This document shows positions 39,589 through 41,470 of a stretch of 53,562 bases of DNA, in pieces (within the stretch, counting starts at the first letter, position 1; the number at the start of each line of letters is the position of its first letter). The DNA is from Bacillota bacterium (lineage in GTDB: Bacteria > Bacillota > Bacilli > Alicyclobacillales > SLC66). The DNA lies in contig JAKACV010000015.1 of the NCBI GenBank assembly GCA_021821085.1, positions 1-53,562 of the forward strand, given 5' to 3'. The notes below the pieces were generated by a model that was not told where the DNA came from, searched no databases, and saw only the letters and a program-made list of their open reading frames with translations. Made by a program: the position numbers and the translations under genes.

Positions 39589-39633
39589 ATTAGGTATACT
39601 CTAGATGACTACACGATCAGAAGGAGGAAACCA

Positions 39634-40101
39634 ATGGAGATGAAAGAAGGACAAGCTGCACCAGACTTTACGCTCGAAGCAACGGGTGCGCAGTCAATTC
39701 AACTTTCGGATCAAAAAGGACATCCAGTTGTGTTATTTTTCTATCCGAAAGACATGACTCCTGGTTGAACTCAGGAGGCAAATGAGTTTCAGGCACTCTT
39801 AGCAGAGTACTCTGAACTCGGAGCCATTGTGCTAGGGCTTAGCACAGATAGTATGACATCACACGAAAAATTTGTGCAAAAGTACAATTTAACCTATCCG
39901 CTATTGTCCGATCCGGACGCTACTGTATGCACAGTGTATGGGGTGTATAAGGAAAAGAAAATGTACGGTCGGGCATATATGGGAATTGAACGCACAACTT
40001 TTCTGATTGATGCAAAGGGCGATATTGCGCGTGTTTATCCAAAAGTGAAAGTTGATGGACACGCGGCTAAGGTTCTTAGCGACTTGAAGCAACTGATATG
40101 A
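39634..40101 (+). CDS. bcp: Bcp/PrxQ-type peroxiredoxin with in-frame TGA at the peroxidatic position (candidate selenoprotein)
   Basis: Read through one TGA, the frame gives 155 residues from ATG 39634 (AAGGAGG 6 bases upstream) to the stop at 40101. It matches Bcp/PrxQ: APDFTLEA, VVLFFYPKDMTPG-[TGA]-TQEANEF, then LGLSTDSMTSHEKFVQKYNL, YPLLSDPDATVCTVYGVYKE and GIERTTFLIDAKGDI. The TGA (39766-39768, codon 45) falls exactly at the catalytic Cys45 of Bcp, in the context TPG-x-T. The usual resolving Cys50 is Asn; Cys99 is the only cysteine. No other stop and no frameshift occur. A stem-loop overlaps the codon (AACTCA/TGAGTT, loop GGAGGCAAA) and another is at 39784-39819. Best reading: selenocysteine. 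The alternative is a nonsense mutation or sequencing error. A GTG at 39829 could give a truncated product. Confidence 0.8.
39784..39819 (+). promoter_or_regulatory. Candidate SECIS-like stem-loop downstream of the TGA
   Basis: GAGTTTCAG (39784-39792) pairs with CTGAACTC (39812-39819) leaving one bulged T; inside it ACTCT/AGAGT closes a TAGC loop. The apical loop lies 31 bases after the TGA, within the 16-37 range known for bacterial SECIS elements, but no G occupies the first two loop positions. A second hairpin (39768-39788) has loop GGAGGCAAA, which begins with G, but sits too near the TGA. Both are readings by eye. Confidence 0.35.
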
Positions 40102-40107
40102 AAAGGT

Positions 40108-40316
40108 CTCCTTTAACAGGCTTGGGAGTAGGCTTGTTAAAGAGCCTGTTCAAAAAGGGTTGAGGTAAGATGCAAGCAGGGGTTTGGTGAAGTCTGGACA
40201 TGCGCGCGGAGTGTACGATAGGTGGTACATGAGCACGCATGTCCAGTACAAGCCGAAGCCCTGCGCCGCAGAGTTCTCGACCCTTTTTAAACAACCTCTT
40301 AAAGGAGTCTTTTTTG
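40108..40316 (+). terminator. Peroxiredoxin terminator, arms separated by the repeat
   Basis: CTCCTTTAA at 40108-40116 is matched by TTAAAGGAG at 40299-40307, followed by TCTTTTTT. Between the arms lie a small 11-bp hairpin (40111-40121 with 40132-40142) and the whole palindromic repeat. The arms and T-run look like an original intrinsic terminator whose loop received the element. Confidence 0.5.
40142..40298. repeat. 157-bp palindromic MITE-like element, copy 1
   Basis: The ends are imperfect inverted repeats: GAGCCTGTTCAAAAAGGG on the left, GAGGTTGTTTAAAAAGGG as the complement of the right end (19 of 23 positions match over the longer ends). The middle folds on itself: CTGGACATGCG pairs exactly with CGCATGTCCAG, and GCAGGG with CCCTGC. 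It is flanked on both sides by TTAAA (40137-40141 and 40299-40303), which looks like a 5-bp target duplication. It has no coding capacity worth noting. A second copy, cut by the window end, is at 53437. Confidence 0.85.
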
Positions 40317-40749: not shown

Positions 40750-41001
40750 CGTAAGACCCGTTATCGAAAAAATCCACCCCAAACTTTATGACGTGAAAAT
40801 CATAAGATTTTTACACCGATTGACCGCAGTAGTTACAAGTGGAAACGAGCGTACAAAAAATGGACAGCGGTTGAGCGAGTGAATAGTTGGTTAGAAGAAT
40901 CGTTTGGGTTTGAAATCCATATGATGTATGGGTTTGCGAAGATGCAGATGCGCTGTGAATTGGCGCTCTGCGTGATGCGGGCGTTGGCCGACAGGACGAA
41001 T
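40750..41001 (+). pseudogene. C-terminal fragment of an IS transposase (DDE type)
   Basis: Translation gives RKTRYRKNPPQTL, a TGA stop (40789-40791), then HKIFTPIDRSSYKWKRAYKK and WTAVERVNSWLEESFGFEIH and KMQMRCELALCVMRALADR. The RSSYKWK...Y-x-x-R/W-T-A-V-E-R-V-N-S...FG-F pattern is that of the C-terminal end of IS4/IS5-type transposases, with the conserved E of the DDE triad in AVERVN. The N-terminal catalytic region and both IS ends are missing. It is a decayed insertion sequence; the TGA here is most simply a disabling mutation. Confidence 0.8.
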
Positions 41002-41119
41002 CAAGGAAAAGAGGTCAGCGCAAAATGCTCTCTTTGTTTAACGGGTGACTTGCGGAAAAAGTGGCGCTCTTGTGGTAGGCGTTGTAAAATGGAAATAGGA
41101 TGGCAAGGAGGAGTTAGCG

Positions 41120-41470
41120 ATGGTAACACTTACAGTGGAAGCGGCGAATGTAGTCAAAGATCTTTTGTCTGATAAGGATGACGCTATGGGATTGCGGATT
41201 TTCGTAAAACCTGGAGGATGTTCAGGTTTTAGTTATGGTATGGCACTTGATATGAAGAAGGAATCAGATTTACTCCTGATGCAAGAAGGCGTTCCCGTAC
41301 TTGTAGACGAAGTTAGTTTTCCTTATATTGATGGATCGGAAATTGACTATGTAAGTGGCTTGTCTGGCAAAGGATTTAAGATTGTAAATCCAAACGCGGT
41401 ATCAAGTTGTGGTTGTGGCTCAAGTTTTCATACCAAAGATGATCCGGGAACACCTGGTAGTTGTTCATAG
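41120..41470 (+). CDS. A-type iron-sulfur carrier (IscA/ErpA/HesB family)
   Basis: A 116-residue A-type carrier that receives and delivers Fe-S clusters. The three cluster cysteines are Cys34 (KPGGCSGFSYG), Cys97 and Cys99 (SSCGCGSSF). The C-terminus is extended by about 12 residues with an additional Cys (GTPGSCS). AAGGAGGAG lies 8 bases before the ATG. It stands alone, with the degraded transposase just upstream; its promoter is not evident. Clients could include the ferredoxin, KorAB or the radical SAM protein in this window. Confidence 0.93.
   Translation: MVTLTVEAANVVKDLLSDKDDAMGLRIFVKPGGCSGFSYGMALDMKKESDLLLMQEGVPVLVDEVSFPYIDGSEIDYVSGLSGKGFKIVNPNAVSSCGCGSSFHTKDDPGTPGSCS

Follow-up and report, generated by a model that had tools for sequence, protein, structure and literature searches.

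The window, the whole 53,562-nucleotide stretch of DNA that was analysed (contig C74 of genome G000), carries at 39634–40101 on the forward strand a 155-codon reading frame for a Bcp/PrxQ peroxiredoxin that is interrupted by a single TGA. The frame starts with ATG at 39634 and is preceded by a strong Shine-Dalgarno sequence, AAGGAGG (39621–39627, +), and an identical motif is found upstream of the gene in its two congeners. The TGA occupies codon 45 (39766–39768, +) in the context FFYPKDMTPG-U-TQEANEFQ, where U stands for the putative selenocysteine (Sec). No further in-frame stop occurs before the terminal TGA (40099–40101, +), which is read as a stop; the orthologues end nearby, several of them with TAA or TAG.

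When read through with cysteine at position 45, the protein scores 141 bits against the AhpC-TSA family (PF00578) and, with 140 bits, reaches the curated cut-off of NF006960, the thioredoxin-dependent thiol peroxidase Bcp. The AlphaFold model has a mean pLDDT of 96.4, and Foldseek matches the predicted fold to Bcp/PrxQ structures with best TM scores of 0.91–0.96; the solved structures closest by sequence are the Bcp proteins of Burkholderia and Xanthomonas. In the alignment, codon 45 falls on the peroxidatic cysteine of Bcp/PrxQ, and the active-site pattern PxxxTxxC is present as PxxxTxxU (P38, T42 and Sec45). The original prediction, of a complete Bcp/PrxQ frame led by a strong Shine-Dalgarno sequence and broken solely by a TGA at the peroxidatic site, is thereby borne out by frame, profiles, fold and alignment. 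It also foresaw that standard gene calling would miss or split such a gene. Translation by the standard code indeed leaves a 90-residue fragment as the longest open reading frame after the TGA (GTG 39829–40101), and the organism’s Bcp enzyme would be overlooked.

Codon 45 in related genomes

The Bcp orthologue is present in 58 of the 61 genomes that make up the neighbourhood of the window, and 18 of these 58 have TGA at codon 45: 11 in family f1, to which the window gene belongs, and seven in family f2. The TGA is shared by the two congeners that were compared, at a protein identity of 76%. Comparison of this codon among homologues had been proposed as a check, and stops elsewhere in the gene of relatives had been named as evidence against a selenoprotein. 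Every non-TGA homologue that was read has a cysteine codon here, TGC or TGT, the others are without an in-frame stop, and all 18 TGA-bearing orthologues lack a second stop before the end of the gene. Since the same codon is TGA in 17 other genomes, with no other interrupting stops, a chance TGA is excluded. A scan of named genomes with a Bcp alignment returned general Bcp genes, none of them with TGA at the site.

Of the 18 genomes with TGA, 17 have SelA above its cut-off, versus 11 of the 40 without TGA (Fisher p = 1.7e-6, uncorrected for the kinship of the genomes). The exception is G041, an assembly that is 99% complete, in which neither SelA nor SelB was found, while the TGA peroxiredoxin (L157) and a tRNA-Sec (L186) are retained. 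This could reflect an assembly gap, or else a recent loss, with the Sec trait in the process of disappearing. Altogether, SelA exceeds the cut-off in 30 of the 61 neighbourhood genomes, and the assumption that Sec use is rare in Bacilli does not hold for this part of them.

Selenocysteine machinery

The genome that contains the window encodes each of the Sec components that were proposed as a check. A tRNA-Sec with a UCA anticodon lies on contig C89 (65.8 bits, above the cut-off, and also called as tRNA-Sec by ARAGORN), together with selA, an open frame of 482 amino acids that scores 570 bits against SelA. The selB gene is found on contig C62 (381 bits, 634 amino acids), and there are two copies of selD, on C76 (367 bits) and C14 (327 bits). 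With tRNA-Sec, selA, selB and selD present, the Sec pathway of this genome is complete.

The two SelD proteins are divergent paralogues (L073 and L170) in a single genome, both apparently Sec-containing: each carries an in-frame TGA at the U of the AGU motif in the glycine-rich N-terminal region, which reads GAGUACK in one and CAGUAAK in the other. An in-frame TGA in this motif is a feature of many known SelD proteins.

Downstream of the peroxiredoxin gene, at 40135–40305, is a near-palindromic, MITE-like repeat of about 170 nt with a very stable predicted RNA fold (−89.6 kcal/mol, z −9.7). The selB gene (L058) and the two selD genes (L073 and L170) likewise have copies of it nearby, which made it a candidate for an element shared among Sec genes. 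The candidate was rejected, because the genome holds at least 40 copies at 96% identity or more. Further along, at 40820–41172, is a transposase-end-like fragment (SYKWKRAYKKWTAVERVNSWLEESFGFE...), just upstream of an ErpA-like Fe-S carrier gene (41120–41470).

Coding constraint after the TGA

Over the 107 codons that follow the TGA, the window gene differs from its two congeners at 18/11/58 and 20/6/57 sites in the first, second and third codon positions. The corresponding dN/dS is about 0.04–0.06 for the two congeners, a ratio that is approximate since dS is near saturation. The region downstream of the TGA is thus under strong purifying selection at the protein level, equal to the constraint on the upstream part.

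This constraint bears on two other explanations for the TGA. UGA recoding in general competes with termination, and the codon might act as a selenium-dependent switch that mostly stops translation, yielding a short leader peptide, and lets the full-length protein be made only under selenium-rich conditions. Such a switch is very improbable, as the terminated product would be 44 residues long and devoid of the catalytic residue, constraint on the gene is equally strong before and after the TGA, and nothing that was found pointed to a regulatory role. Even less credence is due to a pseudogene or a sequencing error, in which TGA arose from TGC or TGT by mutation or misreading and no full protein is made. 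TGA is only one base away from either cysteine codon, and many relatives have Cys in their homologues, but the same TGA recurs in 17 other assemblies, including two congeneric species at 76% identity. The strong purifying selection after the TGA, the lack of a second stop or a frameshift, and the full Sec machinery in the genome all argue against a decayed or misread gene.

A SECIS-like hairpin

A hairpin that resembles a bacterial SECIS element follows the TGA at 39777–39825 on the forward strand. It is composed of a core stem (39783–39797 with 39806–39820, +) and basal pairs (39777–39779 with 39823–39825, +), and corresponds to columns 12–60 counted from the U of the UGA, or 9–57 nt 3' of the UGA. 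Among 12 Sec sequences, 79.6% of cells are paired, compared to 73% in shuffled sequences and 32–50% when the pairing partner is slid, and changes on both sides, of the compensatory kind, occur at eight of the 18 pairs. Because amino-acid constraint alone can create pairing, a synonymous-codon randomisation was used as the control. By this measure, 16 distinct Sec sequences have a pairing z of 6.7 and an energy z of −7.2, versus 2.3 and −3.0 for 18 Cys sequences. One genome, G031, is a misfit to the hairpin register. The window hairpin folded alone is not significant against dinucleotide shuffles (z −0.84), and the support for it therefore comes from the sequence set.

In bacteria, a SECIS element is a hairpin that immediately follows the UGA and whose small apical loop includes a G (PMC1088965). 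The window hairpin lies directly downstream of its UGA, and its apical loop, as folded, is UAGC. The search for a SECIS-like hairpin after the UGA was positive: the hairpin is selected beyond the needs of the protein in the Sec set and only weakly so in the Cys homologues.

The hairpin also counts against the least probable alternative, that a standard amino acid is inserted at the UGA, either Cys via a UGA-reading tRNA-Cys or through a general reassignment of UGA: the site does require a chalcogen nucleophile and its usual residue is Cys, but the peroxiredoxin gene itself stops at TGA where its orthologues end, several with TAA or TAG, selA, selB and selD are retained, the UCA-anticodon tRNA is a tRNA-Sec by its fold, and the tRNA-Cys that was seen has a GCA anticodon.

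Machinery, conservation of the TGA, hairpin and coding constraint all favour the selenoprotein that was originally considered probable. The gene at 39634–40101 is almost certainly intact and encodes a Bcp/PrxQ peroxiredoxin with selenocysteine, its UGA45 being recoded as Sec.

Proposed mechanism and the resolving cysteine

From the genes present, insertion of Sec would proceed by the bacterial route. SelA would make Sec-tRNA(UCA) using selenophosphate supplied by SelD. When a ribosome reaches the UGA at codon 45 of the peroxiredoxin mRNA, SelB loaded with the Sec-tRNA(UCA) would bind the hairpin just 3' of the UGA, and Sec would be inserted in place of termination. In the presumed peroxidase reaction, Sec45 would attack the hydroperoxide and be converted to a selenenic acid, which would then be reduced by an external thiol, either thioredoxin or a low-molecular-weight thiol, in a one-Sec cycle.

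Classic Bcp proteins have a resolving cysteine at position 50. In the window gene this codon is AAT (39781–39783, +), encoding Asn, as had been noticed originally. The resolving Cys of atypical 2-Cys Bcp proteins, at +5 or around +36 from the peroxidatic residue, is thus missing, and position 81, which corresponds to the resolving Cys in Xanthomonas PrxQ, has no Cys in its vicinity. The sole other cysteine, Cys99, is replaced by Ala in the G012 Sec form. With Asn in place of Cys50, a one-Sec cycle with an external thiol as reductant is the most likely mechanism on the basis of the sequence. The suggestion that Asn50 suits such a mechanism stands to this extent, but Cys50 is also absent from Cys-form orthologues of f1, and its loss is consequently not tied one-to-one to Sec.

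Possible switching between Sec and Cys

The two families differ in this respect. The Cys forms of f2 retain Cys at +5 and all of its Sec forms but one lack it, while in f1 it is absent from both Sec and Cys forms. A tree built from 36 orthologues requires five changes of the Sec label, at least three of them forced by well-supported branches. It is possible, if somewhat short of an even chance, that the Bcp peroxiredoxin of this Bacilli order has gone back and forth between Cys and Sec repeatedly, and, as the pattern at +5 would fit, that f1 lost Cys50 in the Sec state and kept it lost on return to Cys in some members, in a family where the tree is weak internally. If so, the Cys-reverted f1 members would be 1-Cys enzymes descended from a selenoenzyme. 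With the TGA forms in 18 neighbouring genomes and the intact Sec pathway, natural pairs of Sec and Cys orthologues from Bacilli become available as a well-sampled set, and as a direct test bed for how Sec and the loss of the resolving cysteine go together.

Two other types of Sec peroxiredoxin were observed in the order. One, with TGA at the catalytic position (FYPLDWTPVU), occurs in G004, G005, G006, G008, G016 and G031 (L160–L163 and L172–L175) and falls far below every curated NCBIfam cut-off; no close copy of this DWTPVU paralogue was found in the window’s genome. The third type comprises AhpC-type peroxiredoxins of family f2 (L164–L169) with TGA at the peroxidatic Cys (FTFVUPTELAAVA).

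Comparison with known selenoproteins

Among the papers searched, none dealt with Sec use in Alicyclobacillaceae. The organism may lie in or close to the acidophilic Alicyclobacillus group, to judge by the character of its sequence, and its placement in Bacilli is that of the original prediction. That Sec peroxiredoxins are known in some bacteria, as the original prediction stated, is long established. PrxU of Eubacterium acidaminophilum is cited in PMC13188914 as a Sec-containing peroxiredoxin (Soehling et al. 2001). The window protein shares this property, but PrxU as defined by NCBIfam NF040737 (peroxi_PrxU, 233 positions) is a different, longer peroxiredoxin, against which the short Bcp/PrxQ protein of the window scores 64.6 bits, with a cut-off of 270. 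A protein named PrxU has also been reported by proteomics in Sulfobacillus thermotolerans, an acidophilic Firmicute, where it is raised on sulfide ore (PMC7409299). This too is a Sec peroxiredoxin, by the authors’ naming, from an acidophilic Gram-positive, but it belongs to another lineage, and the likeness is one of general type.

The Cys-type enzymes E. coli Bcp, Burkholderia Bcp (5enu) and Xanthomonas PrxQ (3gkn) resemble the window protein in fold and sequence (TM 0.91–0.96, 42–46% identity). They differ in having Cys in place of Sec and, usually, a resolving Cys (at 50, or at 84 in Xanthomonas PrxQ) that is missing in the window protein.

The closest relationship is with the Bcp-type Sec peroxiredoxins, which are already recognised as an abundant prokaryotic family. 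They are listed among the established prokaryotic selenoproteins as COG1225 (Bcp) with a TxxU motif (PMC9312934), and likewise as peroxiredoxin PF00578, TxxU (PMC13188914), and 43 genes of this type were found in the Sargasso Sea set (PMC1088965). The window gene joins this family: it belongs to the Bcp/PrxQ subfamily, has Sec at the peroxidatic position with the conserved Thr three residues before it and a hairpin right after the UGA, and has known Cys homologues. What sets it apart is its origin in an order of Bacilli and, perhaps, the Asn, rather than Cys, five residues after Sec. The less expected aspects are thus the Sec-rich order of Bacilli, the probable one-Sec active site without Cys50, and the possible repeated switching between Sec and Cys.
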